Origin: Flavivirga spongiicola
Lineage (GTDB): Bacteria; Bacteroidota; Bacteroidia; Flavobacteriales; Flavobacteriaceae
Reading direction: 5' to 3'
NCBI RefSeq assembly: GCF_030540825.1
Contig: NZ_JAUOEO010000002.1
Location: 744,001 to 808,000, forward strand
DNA length: 64,000 bases
Part shown: positions 31,501-48,353 of the stretch, one piece after another
Position numbering within the stretch: the first letter of the stretch is position 1
Layout of the letters: every line of letters starts with the position of its first letter
Notes under the pieces: generated by a model
What the model was told of the DNA's origin: nothing
What the model saw: only the letters and a program-made list of their open reading frames with translations
Database searches by the model: none
Made by a program: the position numbers and the translations under genes

Positions 31501-32021
31501 TATCTACAGATGGCGGTGGAAATTTTACAACAGTAGAAGAATGGAATAGAGATGATGAATTTGTAAATGATCAATTTTATACAGATCAGGTTATAATTTC
31601 TGGTCCGTTTACTTCTACTACTCAGCTAAGGTTTAGAGCTGATGCTTCTGGAAATTCAGATTGGGTATATATAGATGATGTTGTTATTAGTGGTTGTAGT
31701 TCTGGTGGATCTTCAAAAATAACTTCTAATAAAACAAAAACAGACATAGGAACTATAGACGAAGAGGAACTTAATTTAACAGAAATTGAAACTATACTTT
31801 ATCCTAATCCGTTTAAAGAGGAGTTGATTATTAAAATCCAAGCTGAATATATTCAATCTAATATACGGATATTCAATATGCTTGGTCAATTGATTATCGA
31901 AGAGGATTATTCAAAAGAAACATTAATTAAGATACCAACCTCGAATTTAGAAAGTGGTCAGTATTTAATTAATATAAATATTGATGGAAAAACCATTCGC
32001 AAGCGAGTTGTAAAGAATTAA
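28530..32021 (+). CDS. Secreted modular sulfatase (sulfatase + LamG + Ig-like repeats + MAM-like + T9SS domain)
   Basis: The 1163-residue enzyme should hydrolyse sulfate esters outside the cell. It has a signal peptide (1-21), a sulfatase domain (about 23-500) with metal-binding IADDMGW and the formylglycine motif CAPTRAAILSG (Cys78), then VHLGKFHVGE, HGPF and YFISDNGG. A LamG domain follows (about 540-757), then two PKD/Ig-like repeats (about 763-900, each with TTLTA and STTTYTVTV), a MAM-like sandwich (about 907-1060) and a type A T9SS sorting domain (about 1083-1163). The cysteine form needs an anaerobic sulfatase-maturating or formylglycine-generating enzyme; none is in the window. It is the paralogue of the next gene. 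Confidence 0.93.
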   Translation: MKTIKSLCLLLFILFFNFLSSQSPNVIVVIADDMGWSQVSTGLTNLNNPSDFYETPTLETLASEGIAFPYAYVNGANCAPTRAAILSGQYASRPNNNIWAVDNLNRGGSSTLLIGPSQGLPSGIDELPVSAVTIAETMKTVGYATVHLGKFHVGENESTNTTNNAATDQGFDTNYGGGTKGAPGSYFASSSAPYTFHSNIGPELDVYASPYTAAESISLSVNGDNALEGTKKHVSDAMADAAIDWMEINKSTPFFMHFSNFAIHGPFDTGNARPDLVTKYQAKTPSQMGHNSIGQAAIAEGMDQTIGRLVNYLKTTADPRNPGKMLSENTLVYFISDNGGAIGTDDNGPLKGMKGELYEGGIRSVTIAWSEAPWLANKGTVNNTPILAFDLYPTIAEIGGASLPGGYDIDGESQWQMLSNGTAMTRESLFWHFPGYLIDSNRDQRPVSVIRKGDYKLIHNYETASYEMYNLITDISETTNLLAGSPDQATLIIANDLSTDLQNHLINISAPLPTFRSNGTTVPLPYIIDINGGTPNSTDGCQPTSGYEAYWDFDIANATISEDASGNSHNPITTVGVITGDNLDFKEGDQSAVFNGSTKIQYSDGTFLNAATTTRTMMVWVKPTNLTGLQNVYDEGGGSIGIALRLNGSNLEYVVRDSGTTFVQISSPFPNDGNWHHVALVYDGGNVIQRLYIDGVEVASGIAPSSIGTHTGFGGIGGRLSGTDSFKNTTDAFFTGKMDAFVVYNGVLGATEINDSACTAPPVVVANAGPDVTICDGDSTTLTASGGTTYLWNTGATTASISVSPTSTTTYTVTVSDGSTSDDDDVIVTVNALPVADAGADVTIDEGNSTTLTATGGGTYLWSTGATTASINVSPTSTTTYTVTVTQNGCSSIDDVIVTVNSVGCSYSVINSENFESGWGIWNDGGSDSRRSSNDAIYANGTYCVRLRDNTSTSVTTTDNLDLSIYEEITVDFGYYCRSMDNSNEDFWLQISTDGGGNFTTVEEWNRDDEFVNDQFYTDQVIISGPFTSTTQLRFRADASGNSDWVYIDDVVISGCSSGGSSKITSNKTKTDIGTIDEEELNLTEIETILYPNPFKEELIIKIQAEYIQSNIRIFNMLGQLIIEEDYSKETLIKIPTSNLESGQYLININIDGKTIRKRVVKN

Positions 32022-32210: not shown

Positions 32211-35200
32211 ATGAAAACAATAACTACTTATTTATTGCTGTTATTTTCTATTGTAGTTAATAAAGTTTACTCTCAATCCCCAAACGTCATTGTTATTATA
32301 GCAGACGATATGGGGTGGTCTCAAGTTAGTACAGGATTAACTAATTTAAATAACCCAAGTGATTTTTTTGAAACACCTAGACTGGAAACATTAGCTAGTG
32401 AAGGTATAGCTTTTCCTTATGGTTATGTTAATGGCTCAAACTGTGCGCCAACAAGAGCGGCACTTTTAAGTGGGCAATATGCTTCACGGCCAACAAATAA
32501 CATATTTGCTGTTGATAATTTAAATAGAGGGGGGAATTCTACCTTACTTGTTGGTCCAGATAATGGGTTGCCGAGCGGAATAGATGAACTTCCTGTTACA
32601 GCTATAACCTTAGCAGAAACCATGAAGGTAGCCGGTTATAGAACAGTACATTTAGGAAAATACCATGTTGGAGAAAATGAAGCAACTAATGTTACTGATA
32701 ATGCAGCAACTGATCAGGGGTTTGATGTTAATTATGGAGGCGGAACCAAAGGGAACCCAGGTAATTATTTTGCATCCAACAGTGGAGCTCCATATACTTT
32801 TGGCAGCAGTATTGGACCTGAATTAGATCCGTATGCAGATCCTTATACCGCAGCAGAATCTTTAATGTTGGCTGGAGATAATTCTTTAGAGGGCACAGCA
32901 AAACATGTTACCGATGCGATGGCAGATGCAGCTATGGATTTTATCGATGCAAATATTAACAGTCCTTTTTTCATGCATTTTAGCAATTTTGCTATACATG
33001 GTCCATTTAACCCAAGTGATGCACGACCAGATTTAAGGGCGAAATATAATGCAAAAGCTATTAGTGATCCAAGCTCCATGGGGCATGATAGAAAACCTGG
33101 ACAAGCAGCTTTAGCTGAAGGTATGGATCAGACCATAGGTAGATTAATAGATTATTTAAAAACGACAGCAGACCCTAGAAACCCAGGGCAAATGTTATCG
33201 GCAAATACCTTAGTTTATTTTATTTCAGATAATGGAGGGGCAGTTCATAGTGATGATGCTGGTCCTTTAAGGGGCATGAAAGGAGAATGGTACGAAGGCG
33301 GGATCAGATCCGTTAGTATTGTATGGTCTGAAGCACCATGGTTAGCAAATAAAGGAACCATTAATACAACGCCTATTATTGGGTTTGATATATATCCAAC
33401 ATTTGTAGAAGTTGCCGGTGGTACTTTACCAGCTAGTTATGATATTGATGGCGTAAGTCATTGGCAAATGCTAACTAACGGGACTGCTTTAGGTAGAGAT
33501 GCCTTATACTGGCATTATCCAGGGTATCTTATAGATTCAAATCGTGATGCCAGACCCGTTTCTATTATTAGAAAAGGAGATTATAAATTAATTTATAATT
33601 ATGAAACAGAATCTTATGAATTGTATCACTTAATAAATGATATAAGTGAAACTACTAATTTATTAGCAGGTAGCCCAGATTCAGCTACATTAATTATTGG
33701 TAATGATATGAGTACTGATTTACGAAATCATTTAATAAATATATCTGCTCCTTTACCAACTTACAGAAGTAATGGACTAACAGTTCCTTTACCTTATATA
33801 ATTAGTACTTCTGGAAGTGGTTCAAATTCAACAGATGGTTGTCAGGCAGTAGCAGGATATGAAGCTTATTGGGATTTCGATTCCGTTAGTGATGCTAATG
33901 ACGCTTCTGGAAATGGACATGATCCAAACCCCGTTAATGGTACATTAACCTATGATACTATAGATTTTAAAGAAGGAGATCAATCAGTCATATTTGATGG
34001 AACGGTTGATATAAACTATAGTAGTGCTACATTTTTATCTGAAATAACAACTGCTCGAACAGTTTCAGTATGGATAAAACCTACTAACTTGTCAGGAATT
34101 CAAGAAATATTTGATGAAGGAGGTAATACGGTAGGGATAGCAATGCGCCTTAATGGTTCAGATTTAGAGTCCATAGTAAGAGAGTCTTCAATAATTTCAA
34201 ATAGTTTGAGTGCCGCTTTTCCGTCTGATGGCGATTGGCATCATGTCGCTTTAGTATATGATGGATCGATTACGAGCCACAAACTATATATTGACGGTGT
34301 TGAAGTAGCTACAAATAGTTCAGCACCAAGCTCTATTGGTTCTCATAATACTACGGGAGGTGGTATTGGAGGAGTGATTGGTAGTTGGGATAGTTTTAGT
34401 GTTTCAGCAGATAGCTATTTTTCAGGTAAAATGGATGCATTTTCTGTTTATAATACAGCGTTATCTACTTCACTAATTCAAAATGCCTCGTGTTTAGTTG
34501 TTGCCAATTCAACTGCTGGTTGTCAACCAACAAGCGGATATGAAGCCTATTGGGATTTTGATCTAGCAAGTAATGCGGATGATGCTTCTGGAAATGCACA
34601 TAACCCAACGGCTTTAACATCTACTGGAATTACATATGATATTTCAGATTTTAAAGAAGGAGACCGGTCTGTAGTGTTTAATGGAACGGAAGCTATTCAA
34701 TATGCAACTAATTCTAGCTCTCCTGATAGTTTTTTAAATGCATCGACAAGTTCAAGAAGTATTGCAGCCTGGATGAAGCCAACTCATTTAATAGGAATTC
34801 AAGATATATTTGATGAAGGTGGCCAAAATATTGGTATAGCCATAAGATTAAATGGAAGTGATTTAGAATCTATTGTTAGAGAATCTTCTTCAGTTTCTAC
34901 TAGCTTAAGTGCGGCATTTCCATCAGATGGTGATTGGCACCACATAGCATTAGTATATGATGGCACCAATACAAAACATACTTTATATATAGATGGTAGT
35001 GAGGTAGCAAATAGTAATAGTGCACCTTCTTCAATAACTAGTCATTTTAGTTATGGTGGTATTGGAGGGAAATTAAGTGGAAATGATAGTTTTCAAAATT
35101 CTTCAGATGCTTATTTTACTGGTAAAATGGATGCATTTGCAGTTTATGATATTGTTTTGACACCTGTACAAATTCAAGATCTTAGTACAACTTGGTATTT

Positions 35201-35669
35201 AGACTCAGATGGTGATAATTATGCAATATCTACCACTCAAAGCTGTACCAGCCCAGGAGTAGGTTATACCGCAACCGTATTACCAGTAACCGATTGTGAT
35301 GATTCTGATATTGGGATTAATCCAGACGCCACCGAAATTCCTGATAATGCTATTGATGAAGATTGTGATGGAACGGCTCAAACAACTTTAAGTGCTAATA
35401 GCTTCAACCTTGAAAATGTATCTATAACACCCAATCCATTTAATGAAACTATTAACGTAAAAGTGCCATTAAATTACAATAATGACACGTTAGATATTGT
35501 ACTATTCGATTTAAACGGAAGAATTATTTACAATAAAAATGTAGTAAGTAAAAATGATAAAGTTGAAATACCGATAGGTTTAAACCAATTAAGTAAAGGC
35601 GCTTACTTTATTAAAATTACTAGTAAAAACTTTGGAACTACTATTACAAAAAAGTTAATTAAATATTGA
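32211..35669 (+). CDS. Secreted modular sulfatase (sulfatase + two LamG + MopE-like metal-binding + T9SS domain)
   Basis: The 1152-residue enzyme is the paralogue of the gene at 28530. The signal peptide (1-21) and sulfatase domain (about 23-515) align with it almost without gaps, including CAPTRAALLSG with Cys78 at the same position. After the catalytic domain it has two LamG domains in tandem (about 543-763 and 770-993), a calcium-binding MopE-like segment (about 993-1058: DSDGDNY ... DCDDSDIGINPDATEIPDNAIDEDCDG, in pieces) and a type A T9SS sorting domain (about 1063-1152). The second LamG (CQPTSGYEAYWDFD) is closer to that of the neighbour than the first is. It should act at or outside the cell surface; the substrate is unknown. 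Confidence 0.93.
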   Translation: MKTITTYLLLLFSIVVNKVYSQSPNVIVIIADDMGWSQVSTGLTNLNNPSDFFETPRLETLASEGIAFPYGYVNGSNCAPTRAALLSGQYASRPTNNIFAVDNLNRGGNSTLLVGPDNGLPSGIDELPVTAITLAETMKVAGYRTVHLGKYHVGENEATNVTDNAATDQGFDVNYGGGTKGNPGNYFASNSGAPYTFGSSIGPELDPYADPYTAAESLMLAGDNSLEGTAKHVTDAMADAAMDFIDANINSPFFMHFSNFAIHGPFNPSDARPDLRAKYNAKAISDPSSMGHDRKPGQAALAEGMDQTIGRLIDYLKTTADPRNPGQMLSANTLVYFISDNGGAVHSDDAGPLRGMKGEWYEGGIRSVSIVWSEAPWLANKGTINTTPIIGFDIYPTFVEVAGGTLPASYDIDGVSHWQMLTNGTALGRDALYWHYPGYLIDSNRDARPVSIIRKGDYKLIYNYETESYELYHLINDISETTNLLAGSPDSATLIIGNDMSTDLRNHLINISAPLPTYRSNGLTVPLPYIISTSGSGSNSTDGCQAVAGYEAYWDFDSVSDANDASGNGHDPNPVNGTLTYDTIDFKEGDQSVIFDGTVDINYSSATFLSEITTARTVSVWIKPTNLSGIQEIFDEGGNTVGIAMRLNGSDLESIVRESSIISNSLSAAFPSDGDWHHVALVYDGSITSHKLYIDGVEVATNSSAPSSIGSHNTTGGGIGGVIGSWDSFSVSADSYFSGKMDAFSVYNTALSTSLIQNASCLVVANSTAGCQPTSGYEAYWDFDLASNADDASGNAHNPTALTSTGITYDISDFKEGDRSVVFNGTEAIQYATNSSSPDSFLNASTSSRSIAAWMKPTHLIGIQDIFDEGGQNIGIAIRLNGSDLESIVRESSSVSTSLSAAFPSDGDWHHIALVYDGTNTKHTLYIDGSEVANSNSAPSSITSHFSYGGIGGKLSGNDSFQNSSDAYFTGKMDAFAVYDIVLTPVQIQDLSTTWYLDSDGDNYAISTTQSCTSPGVGYTATVLPVTDCDDSDIGINPDATEIPDNAIDEDCDGTAQTTLSANSFNLENVSITPNPFNETINVKVPLNYNNDTLDIVLFDLNGRIIYNKNVVSKNDKVEIPIGLNQLSKGAYFIKITSKNFGTTITKKLIKY

Positions 35670-35766: not shown

Positions 35767-36354
35767 TTATAAAGTATTACAAGGTTGATAAGAGAAAGAA
35801 GGCGCGTTAAAAATTTTAGGTTCAATTTCTTTTGAGGTATAATAGGCTAAGAGGGTGAATTTTCTGATTGCTATTAAAAAATGATATATGAGATATTGAT
35901 TATTATCATCAATTTTATCTTCTTTTTTTTCTATAAATTCTAGTATTTCTTTTTGTTCTGAAATGTTTTTTTTGAAATAATGACTTAACATGTCCTCAAA
36001 ATTTTTTCTTGTTCCTTTTTCAACGCTTTTATCAAACCGTTCTTGAAATTTATTTTGAAAAATGCGACCACCTCTTAAAAAAAGGTTTTGCTCTTTTTTT
36101 GAAACGACATTCTTTAAAAGAAGATCTATAAATTGTGGTGTATTCACTTCTAATGCCCCTATATTTTCCCCTTTAGGTAAAATAATATCAGACAATTGCT
36201 CCACAACAAAGGCTTGTGTTGTATTTAAAAATATAGGTTTCCAACCTGTTCCGGTTTTAGATTCACAGGAACTTAGCAGATGGAGTAGTGCGGGTGTAGC
36301 CATTGTATACCCAACTGATGCTCCCATTATTTTTAATAAACGTCTTCTATCCAT
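35767..36354 (-). CDS. Gluconate 2-dehydrogenase subunit 3 family protein (Tat signal)
   Basis: The 195-residue protein begins with a twin-arginine signal, MDRRRLLKIMGASVGYTM, which also ends in LLSSC and could be a Tat lipoprotein lipobox. The remainder matches the small subunit of GMC-type dehydrogenases: AFVVEQLSDIILPKGENIGALEVNTPQFIDLL. In known FAD-dependent sugar dehydrogenases this subunit carries the flavoprotein across the inner membrane and supports electron transfer. It is the last gene of the operon, two genes after its likely partner, the GMC oxidoreductase at 37851. Confidence 0.85.
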   Translation of the reverse strand: MDRRRLLKIMGASVGYTMATPALLHLLSSCESKTGTGWKPIFLNTTQAFVVEQLSDIILPKGENIGALEVNTPQFIDLLLKNVVSKKEQNLFLRGGRIFQNKFQERFDKSVEKGTRKNFEDMLSHYFKKNISEQKEILEFIEKKEDKIDDNNQYLIYHFLIAIRKFTLLAYYTSKEIEPKIFNAPSFSYQPCNTL

Positions 36355-36375
36355 TTTTACTGTTTATTCAAGTGA

Positions 36376-37830
36376 TTAAAGCTTTTTGATTTTATAGTTG
36401 ATTCCTAAATCATTATTTCTAACATCTTTTAATTTTTGCTTTAATTTTTGTTTAAAATATGCTACCTCTTTTTCGTATTGAGGAAGTTTAGCCAAATTAT
36501 GATATTGCTTCGGGTCGGTTTCCATATCAAATAGTTCAATACCTTCTGATGCATCTTCATTATACTGAATATATGCCCATTTTTTTGTTCTTAATAAAAA
36601 CGTTTTACCTCCTTGAGTCACAGAAAAAGCCATATCGCGTACTTTATGTTTAGGATTGTTTATTGTTTTGACTAAACTTTTTCCTTGTACATGCTTTGAG
36701 TAGGGTAATTTTGCTAATTCTGAAAGCGTAGGATATAAATCGATTAGCTCAACAAAAGAATGACAAACTTGAGGAGATTTACCAGGGACTTTTATAATTA
36801 AAGGGACTCGTGCAGATTCTTCTTTTAAGCTAACTTTCATCCAAAATTCATGTTCTCCCAAATGAAAACCATGGTCCGAAGTAAAAATAACAATCGTGTT
36901 ATCTTCTAAACCTTCCTCTTTTAAGGTTTTCATTATTTTACCTACTTGTTTATCCATATAAGCAACTGATGCATAGTATGCGGCAATGGCCTTTTTTTTC
37001 TGGGGGTTTGTTATTTGATCTTTTACACTATTTACATAATTGATTCCTTTTTTTGGAATATCGTTCCAGTCTCCATCAAAATTATAAGGTAATTTTATTT
37101 CTTGAGAAGGATATGGTTCGAAATAGCTTTTTGGGGCTACAAAAGGAACATGAGGGCGCACAAAACCTACAGCTAGAAAAAATGGAGTGTTTTTATGTTT
37201 GCGTATCAATTCTGAGGCTTTGGCTGCTGTTTTTCCATCAGAATGTAACATATCATCACCATCGGCTTTAACAATGGTCATGACATTTCCCCCTCTAATA
37301 GGTTTGGTGCCATCAGGATTTCCCTGTACCAGTTCACCTTCACCTTTAGCTTTCCATTCGGGACCTTGACTATTATATCTTTCATTCCATGAGGCGATAT
37401 CATCGGTTCCGTCTGTTCCCATTTCAATATCTATAGGAACTCCCATATGATAAATCTTGCTAACTCTTGCTGTGAAATAATCATTTTTCTTGAATATTTG
37501 AGGTAGTGTATGACGTTTATCACCTATATTTTCTCTTCCGCTAACATACCCATAAGTTTGAGTAGCACTTGGGTAATAACCGGACATTAGGGAGGCTCTG
37601 GAAGGACCACATACGGGATATTGGCAATAGGCTTTGGTATATTGAATGCCTTCTTTTGCAATTTTATCTATATGAGGCGTTCTGGAAACACCATTTTCAT
37701 AACAGGAAACAGCCGTAGTTGTTAAATCATCTGCTATTATAAATAAAACATTCATTTTTTCTTGTACTTGAGCATTTAATAAGCATGTACTTGCCAAAAA
37801 GGAAATTAGGAAGGCTAATCTGTTTTTCAT
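36376..37830 (-). CDS. Sulfatase, iduronate-2-sulfatase-like
   Basis: The 484-residue enzyme has a signal peptide (1-20, LLNAQ) and sulfatase motifs: metal-binding IIADDL, formylglycine motif CGPSRASLMSG with Cys74, and VGFVRPHVPFVAP, then FTSDHGFHLGEHEFWMKVSLKEESARVPLII. This last block and the YP-C-GPSR context match iduronate-2-sulfatase-type enzymes. There is no T9SS sorting domain, so it should be periplasmic. The natural substrate of such marine enzymes is often a 2-sulfated uronic acid or similar, but this is not fixed by sequence. It lies between the GMC gene (20-base gap) and the small-subunit gene (21-base gap). Confidence 0.92.
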   Translation of the reverse strand: MKNRLAFLISFLASTCLLNAQVQEKMNVLFIIADDLTTTAVSCYENGVSRTPHIDKIAKEGIQYTKAYCQYPVCGPSRASLMSGYYPSATQTYGYVSGRENIGDKRHTLPQIFKKNDYFTARVSKIYHMGVPIDIEMGTDGTDDIASWNERYNSQGPEWKAKGEGELVQGNPDGTKPIRGGNVMTIVKADGDDMLHSDGKTAAKASELIRKHKNTPFFLAVGFVRPHVPFVAPKSYFEPYPSQEIKLPYNFDGDWNDIPKKGINYVNSVKDQITNPQKKKAIAAYYASVAYMDKQVGKIMKTLKEEGLEDNTIVIFTSDHGFHLGEHEFWMKVSLKEESARVPLIIKVPGKSPQVCHSFVELIDLYPTLSELAKLPYSKHVQGKSLVKTINNPKHKVRDMAFSVTQGGKTFLLRTKKWAYIQYNEDASEGIELFDMETDPKQYHNLAKLPQYEKEVAYFKQKLKQKLKDVRNNDLGINYKIKKL

Positions 37831-37850
37831 TTTACTATTATAGTTTTAGT

Positions 37851-39560
37851 CTAATCAAATGTTCTGCTTTTTAATTGCAGTACGGCATGTTTTACTGCAC
37901 GCGCTGTTAGTGCCATATAAGTTAGAGAAGGGTTCTGATAGGCAGATGAGGTCATACAGGCTCCATCGGTAACATATACATTGGGTACTGTGTGTATTTG
38001 ATTGTTTTTATTTAAAACAGAAGTTTTAGGATTATGACCCATTCTGGCAGTGCCCATTTCATGGATTCCATGACCAGGAAAACAAGGATTATCATATCCT
38101 TTTACATTTTTAAATCCTGCTTCTTTAAGCATTTTTACAGCTTCTTTTTGTATATCTTCCCGCATGAGCTTTTCATTTTCTTTAAACTCACAATCAAACG
38201 TAACCGTAGGAATGCCCCATTCGTCTTTTTTTTCCGTATCTAAATACATCTTATTTTCATGATATGGTAAGCACTCCCCAAAACCTGTCATTCCTATTTT
38301 CCATGGACCCGGTTTAAATAGTTCTTCTTTTAATTCTTCTCCAAAAGATAGTTCTTTTATGGCTCTTTGCCAATTGCTTCTGCTAGCACTTCCTTGAAAA
38401 CCAAAACCTCTTAAATAGCGTTGTTGCGTGTTTTTATCTCCAAGATTTCTAAATCGAGGGATATGAAAACTTGTGGGTCTTTGTCCTTCATAAAATTTAT
38501 TATCAAAACCTTCAACAGTTGCTGTGGCACCTACCTTAAAATGATGATCCATTAAATTGTGTCCCAGCTCTCCACTATCATTACCCAAACCATTAGGAAA
38601 TCGCTTCGATGTAGAATTCAATAATATGGCTGTACTGGCAACAGTAGAAGCACAACAAAAAATAACTTTTGCCGAGAACGTCATTTTTTTATGGGTTATG
38701 GCATCAATAACTTCTATACCTGTTGCTATTTTTTTAGTATCATCGTATAGGATTTTGTGGACGATCGAGTGTGGTCTCAAAGTCATGTTACCCGTTTTTG
38801 AAGCTGCTGGTAGTGTAGAGGAATTACTACTGAAATAGCCACCATATGCACAGCCTCTAATACATTGATTTCTGTATTGACAATTGCTCCTCCCTTCATG
38901 TTCTGTATTTCCAGTTAAGTGAGCAAACCTACCCATAATTAAGTGTCTATTGGTGTAATTTTGTTCGATCTGATTTCTGAATTCTTGCTCCACACAATTT
39001 AATTCCATGGGAGGTGAAAAAATACCATCTGGCAAATGTGGCAAACCTAATTTTTCACCACAAACACCAATAAACTTTTCTACTTTATCATACCAAGGAG
39101 CCAAGTCTTTATAACGAATAGGCCAATCGACAGCAATGTCTTCTTTTTTATTGGCTTCAAAATCCAAATCACTTAACCGTAAGGTTTGTCTTCCCCAAGT
39201 AATGGAACGTCCTCCTACATGATAGCCTCGTATCCAATCAAATCTTTTTTCTTCATTGTAAGGATGTTGTAAATCATTTACAAACCAATGCTTACTTTCG
39301 GCTCTTATAGTATAACCTGTTCTGTTTTGTTTTTCTTGTTGTTTTAAATCTTTATGATTTACCAATCCGCGATATTTATAGTCCCAAGAATTCTTATTTA
39401 AGGTTGGATAATCCTGGATATGTTTAACCATCCTACCACGCTCTAAAACGAGCGTTTTTAATCCTTGTTCGCACAATTCTTTGGCAGCCCAACCTCCAGA
39501 AACTCCAGTACCTATAACGATGGCATCATAAGTTTCTGCATACTCCTTTACTTCATTCAT
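37851..39560 (-). CDS. GMC family FAD-dependent oxidoreductase
   Basis: The 569-residue flavoprotein has an N-terminal FAD-binding motif (DAIVIGTGVSGGWAAKEL, about residues 12-29), ending in a C-terminal domain with the catalytic pair His in HEMGTARMG and Asn in QNPSLTYMAL. It resembles the large subunits of membrane-linked sugar dehydrogenases, including glucoside 3-dehydrogenase. It lacks any signal peptide, whereas its likely small subunit at 35767 has a Tat signal, which suggests export as a complex. It lies 10 bases from the DUF1080 gene and 20 bases from the sulfatase gene. Confidence 0.92.
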   Translation of the reverse strand: MNEVKEYAETYDAIVIGTGVSGGWAAKELCEQGLKTLVLERGRMVKHIQDYPTLNKNSWDYKYRGLVNHKDLKQQEKQNRTGYTIRAESKHWFVNDLQHPYNEEKRFDWIRGYHVGGRSITWGRQTLRLSDLDFEANKKEDIAVDWPIRYKDLAPWYDKVEKFIGVCGEKLGLPHLPDGIFSPPMELNCVEQEFRNQIEQNYTNRHLIMGRFAHLTGNTEHEGRSNCQYRNQCIRGCAYGGYFSSNSSTLPAASKTGNMTLRPHSIVHKILYDDTKKIATGIEVIDAITHKKMTFSAKVIFCCASTVASTAILLNSTSKRFPNGLGNDSGELGHNLMDHHFKVGATATVEGFDNKFYEGQRPTSFHIPRFRNLGDKNTQQRYLRGFGFQGSASRSNWQRAIKELSFGEELKEELFKPGPWKIGMTGFGECLPYHENKMYLDTEKKDEWGIPTVTFDCEFKENEKLMREDIQKEAVKMLKEAGFKNVKGYDNPCFPGHGIHEMGTARMGHNPKTSVLNKNNQIHTVPNVYVTDGACMTSSAYQNPSLTYMALTARAVKHAVLQLKSRTFD

Positions 39561-39570
39561 TCACCAAAAA

Positions 39571-42500
39571 TTATTTACCTAAATCTTTAATTCTTATTTT
39601 TCTAAACTGTAATTCAGAACCATGACCCAAAAAGGCGATATGCCCTTTATTTCTTTTTAAACCTGGATGATCTTGGTGGTCTGCAGTTCCATTCTTAGCA
39701 GCCTCTTTTATATTTCCATCTACAATAATAGTGCCATTTAATGTGATTTTTATATTATCACCTTTAACTATTACTTCCTGAGAATTCCATTGACCGATAG
39801 GCTTTAAAGCACCTCTTTTTGCTGCTATAATACCATATACAGAACCATGATACTGGTAAGGTTTTAGGTTTTTGTAAATAGGAGCGGTGTTGTCTAAAAT
39901 TTGCAGTTCTTTTCCAACATAAGCAACATCACCTTTTAATGGCGCATGAATACCTAAACCGTTGTTTGCTCCAGGAGTTAATTGAAATTCGAAGCGGAAT
40001 ATAAAATCACTGTATTCTTTTGCTGTATACAAATTTCCATGTCCTCCATTTTTTGGGCGTACTGCCAACACACCATCTTCAATTAGATAATCTGTTTTAT
40101 TTCCAATCCAGTAGTCCAAATTCTCACCATTTAGTAGAGAAGTAAAACCATCTTTTTTTTCTTCTTCTGTTAATCCAGAATCACCAGAATGTATTTCGCG
40201 TACATAAACATTTCTAAACCCTAAATCTTCACCGTGTGCTTGCAATTCAATGGCTTCTTTTGTGAAAATGGGTAGCTTTCTATCCCAATAATTTTCTAAT
40301 ACCACATTATCGGTAACTAATATGCCATTTAAATGTACGGTAACACGATCTCCAACCATTTTAATACGGAATGTATTCCATTCACCAATAGGATTGTCAG
40401 CCACTGTTAATGGTGTTTTTTCATTTTTTTGATTGTTGTATAAGCCACCGCTACCTACTTGTGCTCCTACATTGGTTCTAGCTATATCCCATATTTGTAC
40501 TTGCGGCGTTCCTCTTAAGTAAATGCCACTATCGCCTCCATTGGTAATTTTCCAGTCTACCAACATTTCAAAATCACCATAATCTTTAATCGTACAAATA
40601 TTGTTATAACCTTCACCTTTAAACCCTATAATACCATCCTTAACAAACCAATCTCTAAGCATTTGCGCATTTGCTGTTTTTTGAGCTTTAGCTAACGCAT
40701 GTTTACTCATTTTTGCTCTTGCTATCGGATTTTTAACTAAGCCTTCCCATCCAGAAAGATCTTTTCCATTAAAAAGAGAAACATAGCCTTCATCATTAGG
40801 CATCTTGCTTAAAAATTCCTTTAAATCAATTTTGATATACTGACTATCATTTCCTTTTAAACCTTTAATTATTTTTTCAACGACTCCTCTAACAAAATCT
40901 CCTGAAAATTTATTTTTCTCTCCCGGTTTAGGTAATAATATTGAAATGGCCGATTGCATGGCTGTTTGAGAAAAGACTTCCTTATCGATATAGTTAGATA
41001 CAAATACCAATGACAGGAACGTTTTTACTTTACCAGCTGTTTGAATAAGCTGACTTGTTTGGTTATTCGTTTTTGCATAAGAAGTCAATTTTCGAATCCA
41101 TAATAATTTTTGGTCTTCTGGTGCAGTTGAGCCATTTATTTTTGAAAGATATGCGGTAAATACTTTTTCTATATTTCCATTTCCTTCACGGATAAAATCG
41201 TATAAATATGGTAATACATCGTCACTTTTCCATAGCAATAGTGCGTTAGTTGCCGCTTTTTTAGTTGCTATATCAGAACTTTTCAATGCGTCCTTAATAA
41301 GTTTTAATCCTTCTTTAGAATTAAGTACAGGAAAAATGGGTAACAACTTTTCTTTGGAAATTCCAGATTTGAAGGCCGCTATGAGTTGATCACTTCCCTT
41401 ATTATTGTTTTTAGAAATAACAAAAGACAAGGCGGTTTGAAGCTTCTCAATATATGCTTTCTTATCAGTAACTTCAAGCATGGCAATTAATTGTTGTACG
41501 TCTTTAGCCGTTGAAATACTAGGAATTGTACGGTATGCTACTTCTTGTAATTCGTTATTTGATTGGGCTGCTAGTTTTGATACAAAATCGAAATGTTGTG
41601 TAGCTCTTTTATCTCTCAACAATTCCAATACTACCTTTTTTGAGGCTTTTGGAAAAGTACTAAAATTAGCTACTAGTACATCTGTGTCTTTTGCATTAAT
41701 TGTTCTCTGCAAAGCATGATATAGAGCTTGAAGTTCTTCTTTAGAATGCTCATTTTTTAATAGCCTTTCTAATACAGGTACCGCTTTTTCGTTTTGATTT
41801 ATAGCTAAAACTTTTATGGCTTCTATTCTTAAAGCTTCATTTTTACTTTCTAATGCAGGAAGGATTCCTTTTGTTAAAACATCTTCTTCTTTTCTGTGAG
41901 CCAATGAGTTTAGTAATTGTGCTTTTCCTTCATTTGTTAGCTTTTTCAAAACTTTTAACCAAGGTTTTATTTCCTTTGAAGTCATCCCTTTATTGGCTTC
42001 ATTAAAAATAGCTTTGCGGTATTTTTTGTTTGTTGTGTTTGTAGCTTCTTTTAATAAGGCTTTCGTAATTTCATTTCCAAAATGGTCTCGAAGAATACTA
42101 TAGGCAGCTGAACGAACATGCCATTGATTTTCTGAAGTTGTATTTTCTATAATGTCATAACACACTTCTTTACATAAACCTTTATTTCCATTGATCCCTA
42201 AATTTCTAGCGTATTCAATATAAGCTATAGTAGCATCATCATTTGATATTGCAAAATGTGCTTTTTCAGCTGCCTCAAAAAGGATGCTTTTTGATTGCGG
42301 AGCTCCTATTTTACTTAGAGTATATAAGGCTTCTTTTTGAATTTCTTTATCAGTAGAAGCCGCTAATTTTGTTAGTTCAGCCAAGGCCCCACGATACTTT
42401 AAAACCCCAAGTGCTTTGATGATTTCTTTTTGTGCATTTTTATGATGAATAGCTTTTAATAAAACACTTCCTGCTTTTTCTGAATCAATGCTTGTTAAAA

Positions 42501-42966
42501 CACCGATTACTGGAGCATATAGTTTGTCATTAGACAAAAGACTACTCATTAACACTGTACTTACATCCGTAGCACAATAATTTAGCCTTCTTATTAAAAA
42601 CGTTTTTACCTCATTGTTTTTAACTCTTACGATAGCTTTTAAAAATGCTTTTTCTACAAGAGCTCTACCTGTGTTGTGCTCTGGAGCTGCACAATATTGA
42701 GCTAAACTTTCTAAAGCATAACGGGTCTGCGTATCATCACCTTGTCCTTGAGGGATCAGCATGTCTGTAAATTGAACTACTCCTGATGGCCCAAGATCAA
42801 TTATTTTTTGAGAAAGTTGATCTGCATGTTCATTACTCTTAGCAGGGTACTGAGCTAAAATATCGGCTACTTTGGTTTCTAGTGTTCTATGCTGTTGTGC
42901 TTGTATCGATGTGGTTAATCCAACTATTATTATAAATAATTGTACAATTCTATAATATTTTTTCAT
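39571..42966 (-). CDS. HEAT-repeat protein with two C-terminal DUF1080 (3-keto-disaccharide hydrolase) domains
   Basis: The 1131-residue protein has a signal peptide (1-23, SIQAQ), a long alpha-helical repeat region of HEAT type (about 60-720), then two DUF1080 domains (about 725-935: YVSLFNGKDLSGWEG ... GDSGIYLRGTPQVQIWD; about 940-1131: FTSLLNGENLDYWIG ... NNGLGIHAPLKG). DUF1080 (PF06439) is now associated with cleaving 3-keto-glycosides by an elimination-hydration route. The first domain has an insert (NPIARAKMSKHALAKAQKTA). The protein should be periplasmic. Its place between oxidoreductases and sulfatases supports a role in oxidative glycan breakdown; the catalytic state of each copy is unknown. 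Confidence 0.88.
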   Translation of the reverse strand: MKKYYRIVQLFIIIVGLTTSIQAQQHRTLETKVADILAQYPAKSNEHADQLSQKIIDLGPSGVVQFTDMLIPQGQGDDTQTRYALESLAQYCAAPEHNTGRALVEKAFLKAIVRVKNNEVKTFLIRRLNYCATDVSTVLMSSLLSNDKLYAPVIGVLTSIDSEKAGSVLLKAIHHKNAQKEIIKALGVLKYRGALAELTKLAASTDKEIQKEALYTLSKIGAPQSKSILFEAAEKAHFAISNDDATIAYIEYARNLGINGNKGLCKEVCYDIIENTTSENQWHVRSAAYSILRDHFGNEITKALLKEATNTTNKKYRKAIFNEANKGMTSKEIKPWLKVLKKLTNEGKAQLLNSLAHRKEEDVLTKGILPALESKNEALRIEAIKVLAINQNEKAVPVLERLLKNEHSKEELQALYHALQRTINAKDTDVLVANFSTFPKASKKVVLELLRDKRATQHFDFVSKLAAQSNNELQEVAYRTIPSISTAKDVQQLIAMLEVTDKKAYIEKLQTALSFVISKNNNKGSDQLIAAFKSGISKEKLLPIFPVLNSKEGLKLIKDALKSSDIATKKAATNALLLWKSDDVLPYLYDFIREGNGNIEKVFTAYLSKINGSTAPEDQKLLWIRKLTSYAKTNNQTSQLIQTAGKVKTFLSLVFVSNYIDKEVFSQTAMQSAISILLPKPGEKNKFSGDFVRGVVEKIIKGLKGNDSQYIKIDLKEFLSKMPNDEGYVSLFNGKDLSGWEGLVKNPIARAKMSKHALAKAQKTANAQMLRDWFVKDGIIGFKGEGYNNICTIKDYGDFEMLVDWKITNGGDSGIYLRGTPQVQIWDIARTNVGAQVGSGGLYNNQKNEKTPLTVADNPIGEWNTFRIKMVGDRVTVHLNGILVTDNVVLENYWDRKLPIFTKEAIELQAHGEDLGFRNVYVREIHSGDSGLTEEEKKDGFTSLLNGENLDYWIGNKTDYLIEDGVLAVRPKNGGHGNLYTAKEYSDFIFRFEFQLTPGANNGLGIHAPLKGDVAYVGKELQILDNTAPIYKNLKPYQYHGSVYGIIAAKRGALKPIGQWNSQEVIVKGDNIKITLNGTIIVDGNIKEAAKNGTADHQDHPGLKRNKGHIAFLGHGSELQFRKIRIKDLGK

Positions 42967-42992
42967 AATTAAATTTACTTTTTATAGGATTT

Positions 42993-44600
42993 CTATTGTT
43001 CGATATATTTTTGATCCAAAGCTTTCGAATCTTTATATTTTATCCTTAATTCTGTTAATTTTATTTTTAATGTTTTTACAATGTCTGCGTATGCAGGATC
43101 CTCATAAACATTTTTCATTTCTTGTGAATCTTTTTTACGATCATACAATTCCCACTCATCAACATCATGATAAAAGTGAACTAGCTTATATGCTTTAGTA
43201 ACAATTCCATAGTGTCTTTTTACAGCATGCTCACCTGGGTATTCATAATAATGGTAATAAACAGATTCTCTAGTCCATTTATCATCTATACCTCTCAGAA
43301 GAGGCATCAGGCTTTCTCCTTGCATATCTTCGGGTGCTTTAATATTTGCAGCTTCTAAAAATGTTTGAGCAAAATCAAGGTTTTGTACCATGTCATCATT
43401 GGTAGTTCCTGCATGAATCTTATGTGGCCATCTAATTAGTAATGGTGTTTTAAAAGATTCGTCATATATAAATCGTTTATCAAACCAACCATGCTCTCCC
43501 AAATAGAAACCTTGATCGGAAGTATATATCACTATAGTGTTTTCTGCAAGTTTGTTGTCATCTAAATAATTCAATACCCGTCCTACATTATCATCTACTG
43601 AGGAAATACAAGCTAAGTAATCCTGCATATATCTTTGATATTTCCATTTCATCTTTTCTTTTGATGTCATTGTCGGCCAATTTTCTTTAAAAAAATGGTT
43701 TATTGAGTCTAAAATGGGACCATATTGAGAACGTTGTAAAGAGTTTGCTCTCCCATAAGAAGCGTACAGTCCTCTTTTTAAATCTGGAACCTCTGGTTGT
43801 ACATTACCCATTTCTGCTATAGTTTCTGGTTTTATTTTAGAATCATGACTATACATCATATGGGTTAATATATTCATCTCAGCTGTTTTGGCTGCCGTAC
43901 CCCTATTTTCATAATCATCAAATAGTGTTGATGGTTCTGGAAACTCTTTTTTGGTAAATTCTTTAAATTTTTCAGGACTAGGCCACCACGAACGATGTGG
44001 CGCTTTATGCAAATACATCATTAAAAAAGGCTTTTCCGGATCACGCTTTTTATCCAACCAATTGATGGACATATCTGTTATGATATCTGTTACATATCCC
44101 GTTATGGTTGTATCTCCTTCTTTAGTAATAAACCTTGGATTAATGTAATCACCTTGCCCGGGAAGAATCATAAAGTCATCCACACCTTTAGGATTGTTTC
44201 CAAAATGCAACTTACCAAACATGGCCGTTTGATACCCTGCTTTTTGAAATAATTGAGGAAAGGTAACTTGAGTAGTATCAAATGGCGTTAAATTATCTAT
44301 TTTACCATTTATGTGCGTATGCTTTCCTGTAAGAATAGTTGCTCTGGAAGGCGCACAAATAGAATTGGTTACACAAGCATTAGTAAATAACATACCTTCA
44401 TTTGCTATTCTGTCTATATGTGGTGTTTCTATTAGTTTATTACTATAAGCACTGATTGCCTGATACGCATGATCATCAGACATAATAAACAATATATTTG
44501 GTCGCTCTTGTTTTTTCTCTGGTTCTTCTTTACAAGAAAAGAGAGACAACACTAAAATAAAAATTAGTGCTGGTATATTATAGATCTTATTATTTTTCAC
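42993..44600 (-). CDS. Lipoprotein sulfatase
   Basis: The 535-residue enzyme has a lipoprotein signal with lipobox LFSC (Cys23), and sulfatase motifs: NILFIMSDDHAYQAIS, CAPSRATILTG with Cys82 (the canonical CxPSRxxxLTG motif), AMFGKLHFG and YTSDQGFYLGEHGWFDKRF. The C-terminal part with YHYYEYPGEHAVKRHYG is typical of the family of sulfatases acting on sugar 6- or 4-sulfates, but the exact subfamily cannot be fixed here. It probably sits in the periplasmic face of a membrane. It follows the Gfo/Idh/MocA gene (34 bases) and precedes the DUF1080 gene (26 bases). Confidence 0.93.
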   Translation of the reverse strand: MKNNKIYNIPALIFILVLSLFSCKEEPEKKQERPNILFIMSDDHAYQAISAYSNKLIETPHIDRIANEGMLFTNACVTNSICAPSRATILTGKHTHINGKIDNLTPFDTTQVTFPQLFQKAGYQTAMFGKLHFGNNPKGVDDFMILPGQGDYINPRFITKEGDTTITGYVTDIITDMSINWLDKKRDPEKPFLMMYLHKAPHRSWWPSPEKFKEFTKKEFPEPSTLFDDYENRGTAAKTAEMNILTHMMYSHDSKIKPETIAEMGNVQPEVPDLKRGLYASYGRANSLQRSQYGPILDSINHFFKENWPTMTSKEKMKWKYQRYMQDYLACISSVDDNVGRVLNYLDDNKLAENTIVIYTSDQGFYLGEHGWFDKRFIYDESFKTPLLIRWPHKIHAGTTNDDMVQNLDFAQTFLEAANIKAPEDMQGESLMPLLRGIDDKWTRESVYYHYYEYPGEHAVKRHYGIVTKAYKLVHFYHDVDEWELYDRKKDSQEMKNVYEDPAYADIVKTLKIKLTELRIKYKDSKALDQKYIEQ

Positions 44601-44634
44601 ATGAATAAAATTAAGTTGATTTCTTAGACAAAAT

Positions 44635-45903
44635 CTATATTCTCCATGCTTCTCGCATAGGTTGGTTTATTAATCTATTGGCTTCATCATCATTTATAAA
44701 TTCTTGTTTTACCGGGTCAAATTCTAAAGTTCTTCCTAATCGCAAGGCAATAATTCCCATATTAACGATAGTACAGGAATGATGTCCATTTTCTTCATTC
44801 AATGCAAACTTTTTACGTGTTCGGACAGATTCTGAAAAATTCATAATTTGTTCTTCGGGGTCAGGCATCGTATCAATCATTTCTTTTAAATTTGGGATAG
44901 TCGATTTGAACCCGTTGTAAATTTTCCCGTCAGGCCCTTCTATATAAGCAGCATTTTTATCACTATTTTTTCCATCTAAAATAATCTGGCATCCATCCGC
45001 ATAGGTATACACTATTTTTCTCCATGTACCAATAGCATCGTAATGTTGTTGTGGTGCATCTACTTCTACTTTTATGGGACTTGTATTGTCTTTTCCAAGA
45101 AAATACTGAACAGGGTCTATATAATGTTGTCCCATATCTCCTAATCCACCTCCATCATAATCCCAATAACCTCTAAATGTGGCATGTACTCTATGCGAAT
45201 TGTATGCTTTTTCGGGAGCTGGACCTAGCCACATGTTATAATCTAAATGTTCGGGAATAGTTTGTGGCTGCAAATTTTCTTTTCCTACCCAATAAAATTT
45301 CCAGTTAAACCCAGTTATACCACTAATGGTTACTTTTAAAGGCCAACCTAATGCACCACTATCAACTGCCTTTTTTAGATTTTTAACGGGCGTATTCATG
45401 CCGTAAAAGTTGTCTTTAAAACGAAACCATGTATTTAATCTGAACATACTTCCGTGTACTTTCATGGCTTCCATAACTCTTTTTCCTTCACCTATAGTAC
45501 GAGTCATAGGTTTTTCGCACCATACATCTTTTCCTGCTTCCGCAGCCATTACAGACATTATACCATGCCAGTGAGGTGGTGTTGCTATATGAATTATATC
45601 TATATCAGGTCTTTGTAATACTTCTCTAAAATCTCTATAACCTTTTACATCACTACCAACTTTTTTAAGTGTATTTGCTAAGTGATTACCATCTGCATCA
45701 CAAATAGCCAAAAGTTTTGTGCCTTCATAATTTAAATGACCTTGTCCCATGCCACCAACACCAATAACGGCTTTGGTAAGCTGGTCACTTGGGGCTAAAA
45801 AATTAGTTCCTCCCATAACATGTCTTGGAATAATACTTATTCCAGCTGCTATTACCAACGATTTTTTTACAAAGTCTCTACGATTTGACCCTTTTTTTTC
45901 CAT
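44635..45903 (-). CDS. Gfo/Idh/MocA family oxidoreductase (Tat-exported)
   Basis: The 422-residue protein begins with a twin-arginine signal (NRRDFVKKS, then a hydrophobic stretch to about residue 25). A Rossmann NAD(P)-binding motif VIGVGGMGQGHL follows, then HIATPPHWHGIM and the lysine motif WCEKPMTRTI, then a C-terminal domain with GGGLGDMGQHYIDPVQYFLG. Family members oxidise or reduce sugars and inositols; exported ones in Bacteroidota have been linked to 3-keto-sugar chemistry and to bound cofactor. It is the first structural gene of the minus-strand operon, 165 bases downstream of the regulator gene. Confidence 0.92.
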   Translation of the reverse strand: MEKKGSNRRDFVKKSLVIAAGISIIPRHVMGGTNFLAPSDQLTKAVIGVGGMGQGHLNYEGTKLLAICDADGNHLANTLKKVGSDVKGYRDFREVLQRPDIDIIHIATPPHWHGIMSVMAAEAGKDVWCEKPMTRTIGEGKRVMEAMKVHGSMFRLNTWFRFKDNFYGMNTPVKNLKKAVDSGALGWPLKVTISGITGFNWKFYWVGKENLQPQTIPEHLDYNMWLGPAPEKAYNSHRVHATFRGYWDYDGGGLGDMGQHYIDPVQYFLGKDNTSPIKVEVDAPQQHYDAIGTWRKIVYTYADGCQIILDGKNSDKNAAYIEGPDGKIYNGFKSTIPNLKEMIDTMPDPEEQIMNFSESVRTRKKFALNEENGHHSCTIVNMGIIALRLGRTLEFDPVKQEFINDDEANRLINQPMREAWRI

Positions 45904-46067
45904 AAGTTATAATTTTCTATGATTGACTTTATTTTATTCTTGTAACAAAGAAATGGGAGGTCGTGTAAAATAAAGGGTAACAAAAGGGGTACTAAAAAAT
46001 ATTATTTCTTAAAATGCTAAAAATTGGAGGTATAAAAACAATATGTTTTTAAATATTCGGAAAAAAA
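45904..46067 (-). promoter_or_regulatory. Presumed promoter region of the oxidoreductase-sulfatase operon
   Basis: This 164-base gap precedes the first structural gene. On the minus strand TTTGTTAC occurs twice, about 36 bases apart (plus-strand GTAACAAA at about 45942 and 45978), in a GC-richer patch, which could be an operator pair. No clear TAnnTTTG box was found. Confidence 0.3.
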
Positions 46068-48353
46068 TTAGCTAGAAGTCATATCTTCAAAAGAAACGGC
46101 ATAGGTTTCTTTATATATTTTGTAATAAAGTTTCACAAAATTGTCATACGCTTTATAGGCCAGGCTCAATTTTCCTTGTTGAATTAATAATTGAAGCTTT
46201 AGGCTATGTGCTTTTTCATTTAAGTCATCGTAAATACAAATAACATCTGTTAAAAGCAATAGTAAATTACAATGTTTTTCTTTGTCTAATATTTCTATAA
46301 AATCTAAGCATTGCTCTATAATTTGATTGCTGAATTTCTCAATAAATGGATCTAACCAAGATTCACTTGAGCCTGAGAATAATCGCCCTGTTTTTAAAAT
46401 AGTTAGAAATGTAGGCAGTATGTCTTCTAATTCTTTAACTGAAAACTCATTTATTAAAAAATCATCTAAGTAATTTTGAATAATTAAATAATCATAATAA
46501 CAATTTTCAGATAATTCAATAAACCAAAATTTATCTTTAAAAACGAGATTGATTCCTGGACAGCTTCTTAGCCTTGAACGTAAATTATTAGTATTTGTAC
46601 CTCGTGTGTTTTTTGCTTTTTGAGGACTCATTCCTGGCCATAAAAACTCTGTAAGTTGTTTTGTAGAGATGCCTTTTTTGTTGTTTTGGTGACTGTGTAA
46701 TAATATGACAATAAATAGCTTTTTAAGCAAAGGCGAAAAATTTTCAGCTATATCTTGCCCGTCTTTGTCTAGAATTTTTAGTTTCCCGAAGCATAGAATA
46801 CTTTCATTTTCTCTATTTTCATGATCTTTAGCAAATACCTGCTGTTCCTTTTTTACTTGTCTATACTTTTTATGGTTATGCTTTTTTAGGTTTTTAGATT
46901 TATGTTTAAAGAAGAGAATAAATATTATTATTAAAAGAGTACCAAAAATAATAAGACCTACTGTTATTTTATTATTTAGAGAATTTTCTGCTTTACTTTT
47001 AAATAACGTTGATACTTCTTTTTCGTTTAGTTCTCGTTCCCAAATTTTAATTTCATCCAGATAACCTTCAAAAAACTCTTCCCATAAATTTGTTCCAATA
47101 TGTATATTATAATCAGAGGTCATCACATATTCAGAAATTAATTCAACTTTTTCGGTTAGTTTTCCATTGACGTAAAAAAATAAGCTGTTGTCTATTTGTG
47201 AATGCACTAAAGCAATATGTGACCATTTGTTTAAAGGAATAGGCGATGTTCTAGAAATATAATCTTTTATACGGGTCATGGTAAACGTTAAAAAACCATT
47301 GCGAAGTTTTACTGCAAAACTTTCTCCTTTTCCTAAAATACTGTTGTCTATTCCTAAAGAGGTAGGTTTTATCCAGGCACTTATTGTAAAACTATTACGT
47401 AAAGAATTTTTACTTTCTATTCCTGTGTCTATATAGCCTCCATTTTTAAAAAAACCAACGTTTCCCCGAGTTGAATCTTTCTTAAATTTTACATTGTTTA
47501 TTAATAATCCTTTACTGTTATCATTCAATTTGTTTTTAAACTTTGGGTCGAATACATAATAATCCGATAAGCCAAAATTCAAGTCTAATTGAAACGCTTT
47601 AAAGTTTTTGAGATTTTCTAAATTTTTTTCTGTAGTATGAATGATATCTGGCGAAAAATGATAGCCAGCTTTATAGGGAATTAAAATAGGAAGGCTATCT
47701 TCATTAATAATTGGAAAATTAAAATATCCACCAGCTGTTGATGATTTGTATTTTATAAACTTCACATCATTTATCAATGATTCAGCATCTGTTTTAATGG
47801 TTCCAGATATCGTTTTTAATGAATTTAAATAAGAAACAACACTGTCTGCTTTAACAAGCAAATTACTATTTATTTCAATGAAATTGGGGCGTTTCCCATA
47901 TTGATCCCAAAAATTTATCAAATGTTTGGTGCTACTTAAATGAGTTCTTGTAAGTTTTTTTGTGTTTATGGGTTGGACAAGTCTGTTGTTTATAGAGTTA
48001 AGGTGAATCGTTTCAATTTTATCAGGAGGAATTTGAAATACTGAAAGGTTGCCATCTAAAAGGGAATCGATATTTTGCTGTGTGATAACAACCACCTCTT
48101 TTCTATGTTTTACATACTTTTTTAAATGGTTTAAATGTGTCGTTTTTGATATTTCAAAAGCTAGGGGTGTACTACTATTACTTAATAAAGAATCTAATTT
48201 GAATGTAAAAGGGTTTTTTTCTATATCGATTAAAATATAGGATTTTGAAAGGATGTTTTCTTCTGAATAACCACTTTTATTTTGAGCGAGGCTAAAATGT
48301 GTTATTGTAAATAACAGGAGAATGGATAAAAAACAAGAAATAGTTTTATTCAA
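46068..48353 (-). CDS. Membrane-spanning regulator: periplasmic LamG sensor and cytosolic winged-helix/BTAD-like domain
   Basis: The 761-residue protein has a signal peptide (1-23), a periplasmic part ending in a LamG/concanavalin-A-like domain (about 300-455: GGYIDTGIESKNSLRNSFTISAWIKP ... FFYVNGKLTEKV, in pieces), one membrane helix (about 462-482, VGLIIFGTLLIIIFILFF), then a cytosolic OmpR-like winged-helix domain (about 521-608, FGKLKILDKDGQ ... TKQLTEFLWPGMSPQKAKNTR) and a helical BTAD-like end (about 625-761). It would sense a ligand outside the inner membrane and bind DNA directly, without phosphorelay. It lies directly upstream of the operon at 35767-45903, its likely target. No histidine kinase or receiver motifs are present. 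A -7 box TAAATTTG (minus strand, 48374-48381) precedes it. Confidence 0.72.
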   Translation of the reverse strand: MNKTISCFLSILLLFTITHFSLAQNKSGYSEENILSKSYILIDIEKNPFTFKLDSLLSNSSTPLAFEISKTTHLNHLKKYVKHRKEVVVITQQNIDSLLDGNLSVFQIPPDKIETIHLNSINNRLVQPINTKKLTRTHLSSTKHLINFWDQYGKRPNFIEINSNLLVKADSVVSYLNSLKTISGTIKTDAESLINDVKFIKYKSSTAGGYFNFPIINEDSLPILIPYKAGYHFSPDIIHTTEKNLENLKNFKAFQLDLNFGLSDYYVFDPKFKNKLNDNSKGLLINNVKFKKDSTRGNVGFFKNGGYIDTGIESKNSLRNSFTISAWIKPTSLGIDNSILGKGESFAVKLRNGFLTFTMTRIKDYISRTSPIPLNKWSHIALVHSQIDNSLFFYVNGKLTEKVELISEYVMTSDYNIHIGTNLWEEFFEGYLDEIKIWERELNEKEVSTLFKSKAENSLNNKITVGLIIFGTLLIIIFILFFKHKSKNLKKHNHKKYRQVKKEQQVFAKDHENRENESILCFGKLKILDKDGQDIAENFSPLLKKLFIVILLHSHQNNKKGISTKQLTEFLWPGMSPQKAKNTRGTNTNNLRSRLRSCPGINLVFKDKFWFIELSENCYYDYLIIQNYLDDFLINEFSVKELEDILPTFLTILKTGRLFSGSSESWLDPFIEKFSNQIIEQCLDFIEILDKEKHCNLLLLLTDVICIYDDLNEKAHSLKLQLLIQQGKLSLAYKAYDNFVKLYYKIYKETYAVSFEDMTSS

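Follow-up and report, generated by a model that had tools for sequence, protein, structure and literature searches.

Two sulfatases interleaved with a putative 3-keto-glycoside cleavage module in Flavivirga spongiicola: a candidate glycosidase-free route for a sulfated sugar

Sulfated glycans are usually viewed as being degraded by sulfatases together with glycoside hydrolases (GHs) or lyases encoded in a SusC/SusD locus. A glycosidase is not needed in the BT2156-BT2159 pathway of gut Bacteroidota, in which a Gfo/Idh/MocA dehydrogenase is encoded beside a DUF1080 lyase/hydratase; according to excerpts of PMC12385236, BT2156-BT2159 of B. thetaiotaomicron convert glucosinolates, and excerpts of PMC9007349 tie a DUF1080 gene to a 3-dehydrogenase in lactose use by Caulobacter. 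Here we describe a six-gene operon of related content in a 64,000-nucleotide stretch of the Flavivirga spongiicola genome (contig NZ_JAUOEO010000002.1, positions 744,001 to 808,000; hereafter the window). Its core is a Gfo/Idh/MocA oxidoreductase (GFO) and a protein that fuses HEAT repeats to two DUF1080 domains, and two sulfatase genes are built into it. The locus looks like a known, broad 3-oxidation/elimination/hydration module with sulfatases added, because the core lacks a detected sulfatase in 83 of 89 loci compared and is interleaved with sulfatases only in the window. The core chemistry is of a known kind; the new element is the sulfatase pair within it.

Calling of open reading frames (ORFs) in the window places seven relevant genes on the minus strand, listed here in transcription order with the adjoining upstream gene first:
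46068..48353, minus strand: regulator-like protein; Pfam Laminin_G_3 alone, other parts by eye
44635..45903, minus strand: GFO; Pfam GFO_IDH_MocA PF01408 and PF19051, twin-arginine N-terminus
42993..44600, minus strand: S1 sulfatase B; Pfam Sulfatase and SGSH_C, CAPSR motif, lipoprotein-like N-terminus by eye
39571..42966, minus strand: HEAT/DUF1080 protein; Pfam HEAT repeats and two C-terminal 3keto-disac_hyd domains (PF06439, formerly DUF1080)
37851..39560, minus strand: GMC flavoprotein large subunit; Pfam GMC_oxred N and C, own signal peptide absent by eye
36376..37830, minus strand: S1 sulfatase A; Pfam Sulfatase, CGPSR motif, signal peptide by eye
35767..36354, minus strand: GMC small subunit; Pfam Gluconate_2-dh3, RRR Tat-like N-terminus and lipobox-like cysteine by eye

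The last six genes form a block running from 45903 to 35767 on the minus strand, with gaps in transcription order of 34, 26, 10, 20 and 21 bases. ORF calls and Pfam thus bear out the gene content and the tight spacing of 10-34 bases given in the initial annotation, as well as its observation that glycoside hydrolases and lyases are missing: no operon protein matches a GH or polysaccharide lyase (PL) family in Pfam. With the translations read by eye, every operon product except the GMC subunit carries an export signal. The gene arrangement is not due to chance, because the pair of GFO and HEAT/DUF1080 genes recurs across Bacteroidota.

The enzymes of the core point to cleavage by way of a 3-keto sugar. 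In both sequence and fold searches the best match of the window GFO is the Alistipes glucoside-3-dehydrogenase AL3 (8tdf/8tdh), and among NCBIfam models a glycoside 3-dehydrogenase (BT_2158_fam) ranks first, at 155.6 of 750 bits, far under its cut-off. The twin-arginine translocation (Tat) signal that the initial annotation had read in the GFO N-terminus holds up well, its arginine pair being invariant in 14 of 14 aligned sequences, and the protein is probably a periplasmic glycoside 3-dehydrogenase. Fold matches of the C-terminal DUF1080 domain include entries titled '3-keto-glycoside eliminase/hydratase' (8rr2/9fbe) and '3-keto-2-hydroxy-glucal hydratase' (8tda/8v31), and the N-terminal domain has weak sequence matches to the same four entries (8rr2, 9fbe, 8tda, 8v31). 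Each of the two domains has its own set of invariant polar residues in an alignment of 82 of 89 core proteins, the other seven having been left out for want of the regular-expression anchor. By this resemblance the HEAT/DUF1080 protein is probably a 3-keto-glycoside eliminase and hydratase. We regard 3-oxidation followed by elimination and hydration as the quite likely chemistry of the core, as judged from sequence and fold kinship.

The GMC pair could supply a second oxidant. The relatives of the large subunit in the PDB are the large subunits of fructose and glucose dehydrogenases. It is 78-84% identical to the unsplit GMC proteins of five other core loci that encode both GMC and a small subunit, and 50% identical to that of a further core locus, L105 (Pontibacter flavimaris); the window small subunit is 34-45% identical to the small subunits of core loci. 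In related dehydrogenases a GMC subunit is exported together with a Tat-signal small subunit, and by analogy the small subunit here would act as the export carrier of its GMC partner. In one metagenome-assembled genome (locus L061) the GMC gene lies in two pieces (5942-6265 and 6526-7680), possibly through a frameshift or an assembly error.

Set beside the BT2156-BT2159 pathway, the window locus shares a Gfo/Idh/MocA dehydrogenase with DUF1080 domains encoded in the same operon, here two PF06439 domains above the Pfam cut-off. By contrast, its GFO is distant and falls outside the BT_2158 equivalog, its two DUF1080 domains are fused to HEAT repeats, and it adds the GMC pair and two sulfatases; a sugar phosphate isomerase/epimerase-like partner of the BT2156 type was not found by Pfam among the operon proteins. 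The LacABC plus DUF1080 route of Caulobacter and other bacteria is likewise periplasmic and has a GMC large subunit and a Gluconate_2-dh3 small subunit near DUF1080, but the window has in addition a GFO and sulfatases, one of the latter between the GMC gene and the small-subunit gene. No ORF of at least 100 amino acids with a c-type cytochrome motif (CxxCH) occurs in the window or in the stretches around the seven other GMC-bearing core loci.

Two other kinds of system invite comparison. Like the sulfatase-rich polysaccharide utilization loci (PULs) of Bacteroidota, the window has exported S1 sulfatases with a regulator-like gene nearby; unlike them, its operon has no SusC/SusD pair, GH or PL that we could find. 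No SusD family protein is present among the window proteins scanned, so the tandem SusC/SusD pair of a PUL is missing from them, and the sole beta-barrel protein (15966-19079) matches OMP_b-brl_4 and a TonB-dependent barrel, both below cut-off. Oxidoreductive sulfoquinovosidases (8qc3 and related entries, themselves among the GFO fold matches) also use a Gfo/Idh/MocA enzyme to cleave sulfur-bearing glycosides. They act alone, with NAD+, on sulfonates, whereas the window combines ester sulfatases, DUF1080 and GMC proteins. In the literature searched we found no paper that joins DUF1080 and sulfatases as one route; among the matches listed, the only paper with both was an iron transcriptome study (PMC10434189, as far as its excerpts go).

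The distribution of the core was surveyed with the HEAT/DUF1080 alignment as query over genome contigs, taking the best 80 of at least 592 confirmed relatives. Together with 14 loci from genome-search matches and the window itself, and with L117, whose ORF is truncated, and five duplicates removed, this yielded 89 distinct loci, a locus being counted where a long HEAT/DUF1080 ORF is present. In 82 of them the gene immediately upstream of HEAT/DUF1080 is a GFO ortholog. Three of the seven exceptions start right at the end of a contig (L066, L072, L094), and in three more (L080, L089, L098) the GFO gene is adjacent but beyond our distance limits; the last is the window, in which sulfatase B separates the two genes. 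The core ranges to Chitinophaga, Pedobacter, Dyadobacter and Larkinella, and the window GFO is 66-87% identical to 13 orthologs picked across Bacteroidota. A homolog of the regulator-like LamG/winged-helix protein occurs near the core in 25 of the 89 loci, window included, and GMC follows the core in eight: in seven it is accompanied by the small subunit (window, L034, L035, L038, L039, L054, L061), and the eighth is L105. The conserved unit is therefore GFO and HEAT/DUF1080, to which the regulator is often added and, in some loci, GMC and its small subunit.

Genome-wise, the core is not universal: its HEAT/DUF1080 protein was found in 14 of 397 genomes of the family (E <= 1e-250) and, in a class-wide search, in 8 other genomes of 395 (E <= 1e-200) at 36-42% identity. 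Closer relatives of this protein (P0008-P0020 and P0022) are 59-78% identical to it. The core itself is a testable target, because no NCBIfam equivalog matches it above cut-off and no characterized example of a GFO with a HEAT/tandem-DUF1080 protein was met in the searches made. Loci L048-L051 and L086 encode stand-alone DUF1080 proteins closely resembling the C-terminal domain of the window protein, followed in L048-L051 by a Gfo/Idh/MocA gene of about 300 bits.

Sulfatases are rare company for this core. With profiles started from the two window sulfatases, over flanks of at most about 10 kb and less on short contigs, a sulfatase was detected in 6 of the 89 loci (window, L040, L094, L121, L105, L110). 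In L040, L094 and L121 it lies 5.6-7.2 kb from the core. In L105 and L110 a same-strand sulfatase is found just upstream of the GFO gene: L105 has a SusD gene, two sulfatases and then SusC/SusD-type genes, in addition to its GMC, and L110, from a Bacteroidales metagenome-assembled genome, has the gene row GH27, sulfatase, GFO, HEAT/DUF1080, GH29. The window has two sulfatases interleaved in the core operon and two more on the other strand. Thus three separate lineages in the sample have sulfatases next to the core, and the sulfatases are interleaved with it in the window only (1 of 89 loci, the genes for P0008-P0020 and P0022 lying outside the comparison).

Because 83 of the 89 loci have no detected sulfatase, the core is a general module and not a sulfated-glycan system as such, and only the two sulfatases point to specificity for a sulfated glycan. 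This bears on several statements of the initial annotation. Its chemistry of C3 oxidation, elimination and hydration agrees with the kinship of the GFO to glucoside-3-dehydrogenase and of DUF1080 to eliminase/hydratases, whereas dedication of the locus as a whole to a sulfated glycan is not supported by the comparison. It had called the combination of sulfatases with an oxidative route unusual, which is right for this core, with one interleaved case and two more just upstream, but not for DUF1080 near sulfatases in general: in the 12 genomes examined from the genus, a sulfatase on the list used occurs no more than 5 kb from at least 7 of the 72 DUF1080 clusters, and the window's own genome carries another trio of DUF1080, GFO and sulfatase genes at C1:1.420 Mb (L045). 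It had proposed a search for the same gene set in other flavobacteria; our survey recovered adjacent GFO and HEAT/DUF1080 genes in 82 of 89 loci, and interleaved sulfatases in none of the loci compared with the window.

Both operon sulfatases have the features of formylglycine-type S1 enzymes, namely a PF00884 domain and a CxPSR motif (at residues 74 and 82), and they are candidate members of subfamilies S1_11 (sulfatase B) and S1_7 (sulfatase A). The closest solved relatives of sulfatase B are an N-acetylglucosamine-6-sulfatase (5g2v, 500.7 bits) and a mucin-desulfating sulfatase (7p24); those of sulfatase A are an arylsulfatase (6hhm) and human iduronate-2-sulfatase (5fql). A search of 395 genomes of the order (E <= 1e-170) gave relatives of sulfatase B in 10 besides the own genome, the best per genome at 58-75% identity. 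Eleven of the 12 matches outside the own genome, two of them from one genome, were followed into their neighbourhoods; the HEAT/DUF1080 core is missing from all 11, and in L175 there is a weak match to a single DUF1080 domain about 8 kb away. Judged from 30 chosen ORFs, these surroundings are mixed, several being housekeeping and one having GH95, DUF4861 and further sulfatases.

For sulfatase A, a search of 397 genomes of the family gave orthologs (66-75% identity) in 31 genomes besides the own one. An ortholog is present in 10 of 14 core-bearing genomes of the family versus 21 of 382 genomes without the core (Fisher P 1.6e-9, uncorrected for relatedness, habitat or genome size; the two draws of 397 family genomes, one for the core and one for sulfatase A, are treated as one set apart from the own genome). 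In those ten genomes it lies on another contig than the core in nine and about 1 Mb away in the tenth. Among the neighbourhoods of 21 of the 31 matches, no gene family recurs in more than five, and two (L181 and L210) have full-length orthologs of A and B close together. A heparan-sulfate-like substrate, which the nearest solved sulfatases might suggest, was considered and is unconfirmed, the neighbourhoods of sulfatase B orthologs being mixed and those of sulfatase A orthologs having no gene family in common in more than five of 21. In L198 of genome G337, a sulfatase A ortholog has near it a pair of short neighbouring ORFs (11254-12330) that are related to sulfatase B and possibly represent a broken gene.

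Taken together, these observations suggest a known oxidative chemistry adapted to a sulfated sugar. Coupling of the sulfatases to the core is supported by their position, by the two similar cases in L105 and L110 and by the genome-level association; the sulfatases would then have been inserted into the core. We infer the substrate class, the order of steps, the division of labour between DUF1080 domains, co-transcription and all activities, and the route would run as follows. The two S1 sulfatases would desulfate an oligosaccharide or glycoside and open its terminal sugar to oxidation. That sugar would be oxidized at C3 by the Tat-exported GFO, with a bound nicotinamide, and/or by the GMC/small-subunit flavoenzyme, which would feed the respiratory chain. 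One DUF1080 domain would eliminate the aglycone to give a 2-hydroxy-3-keto-glycal, and the other would hydrate the glycal to a 3-keto sugar that may then be reduced or taken up.

On balance, and without holding it firmly, we favor a cassette that has been adapted to a sulfated substrate and deglycosylates it in the periplasm without any glycosidase. That the substrate is sulfated seems reasonably likely in its own right, and that sulfatases and core act on the same molecule is only slightly favored over the contrary. A bolder version, which we regard as possible and somewhat doubtful, is a dedicated glycosidase-free route for sulfated glycans, in which desulfation and C3-oxidative elimination/hydration follow one another in the periplasm from one operon, a tandem DUF1080 protein divides lyase and hydratase work on a HEAT scaffold, and sulfatase A is a genome-wide partner of the core even where unlinked. 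If sulfatases do feed a route of C3 oxidation and elimination, loci that lack recognizable hydrolases would cease to be blanks, and a share of the extensive flavobacterial sulfatase repertoire would be given a pathway.

The chief competing explanation is that the sulfatases are passengers, i.e. that a general 3-keto-glycoside core carries in its transcript sulfatases that hit unrelated sulfate esters, for instance in sulfate scavenging, so that regulation is common and the substrate is not. The many core loci without a detected sulfatase favor it, as do the neighbourhoods examined in which orthologs of both sulfatases stand without the HEAT/DUF1080 core, and the 40 sulfatase matches in the genome make chance neighbours available. 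It is harder to explain in this way why a tightly packed block of genes on one strand should have a sulfatase at each of two junctions, and the same-strand sulfatase neighbours in L105 and L110 and the association of sulfatase A with the core, uncorrected as it is, argue in the same direction. We therefore rate passenger sulfatases as unlikely, while still a serious contender.

Adaptation of the core to a sulfated substrate also has to be weighed against readings that change the chemistry or the substrate class. The DUF1080 domains, with their GH16/CBM66-like fold, might be ordinary glycosidases or carbohydrate-binding domains, leaving the oxidoreductases to other work such as oxidation without cleavage; this is improbable given that the solved relatives with a function in their title are 3-keto-glycoside eliminase/hydratases, that Caulobacter lactose use ties DUF1080 to a 3-dehydrogenase (excerpts of PMC9007349) and that the pairing with a 3-dehydrogenase-like GFO is near-constant. 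Alternatively, the sulfatases could come into play once oxidative cleavage is done, or could desulfate the aglycone (a glucosinolate-like leaving group), the substrates being sulfated small-molecule glycosides and not an algal polysaccharide. Glucosinolate conversion by BT2156-BT2159 (excerpts of PMC12385236) offers a precedent, and the operon has no SusC/SusD pair or endo-acting enzyme. By contrast, the nearest solved kin of the sulfatases, N-acetylglucosamine-6-sulfatase for B and iduronate-2-sulfatase for A, act on glycan sulfates, and a congener (G019) holds GH29, GH2 and GH43 together with a sulfatase in the same genomic slot, which leaves the small-molecule reading very improbable.

That slot is variable within the genus. 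Among 12 genomes of the genus, the window's own is alone in having the HEAT/DUF1080 protein (E <= 1e-80), and synteny beside the histidyl-tRNA synthetase gene was read in 10 of the 11 other congeners. A 1730-aa LamG protein with a type IX secretion system (T9SS) tail (22418-27610) is at the site in all 10, with a 41-44% relative further along in five of nine second stretches. Two sulfatases of similar build follow in the window:
28530..32021, plus strand: LamG and T9SS-tail S1 sulfatase, site context outside the operon; relatives at the matching congener site
32211..35669, plus strand: LamG and T9SS-tail S1 sulfatase, site context outside the operon (Pfam); relatives at the matching congener site
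Relatives of these sulfatases are found at the site in 9 of the 10 congeners, at two separate places in six and as overlapping matches in three; the stretch of the tenth (L135) ends early. Because such relatives occupy the site in operon-free congeners, we rejected both genes as members of the system and treat them as site context. Two congeners have a second stretch long enough to reach tRNA-Met (56378), and in both of them synteny returns there. The G019 slot (L152, 2950-17878) contains GH29, an S1 sulfatase, GH2, an aldose epimerase, a RhaT-like transporter, GH43 and a hybrid two-component regulator. The operon thus sits in a slot whose content varies, and in at least one congener that content includes hydrolytic glycan genes.

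The regulator-like gene (46068-48353) adjoins the six-gene block 164 bases upstream and lies outside it. Its product has a signal peptide, LamG, a transmembrane helix and a cytoplasmic winged-helix/BTAD-like part, all read by eye except LamG, and might represent an undescribed type of glycan sensor. A Bacteroidetes-type promoter pattern was looked for and not seen just upstream of either this gene or the GFO gene. Beyond it, a 44-base stretch of the tRNA-Met 3' end is repeated exactly and directly at 48655-48698 and 56378-56421. The operon was considered as cargo of an integrase element, which is unsupported, since these repeats place the element at 48655-56421, beside the operon. They bracket a tyrosine recombinase/integrase gene (48975-50069) and four larger ORFs without Pfam matches, so that 48655-56421 is probably an integrated element in its own right.

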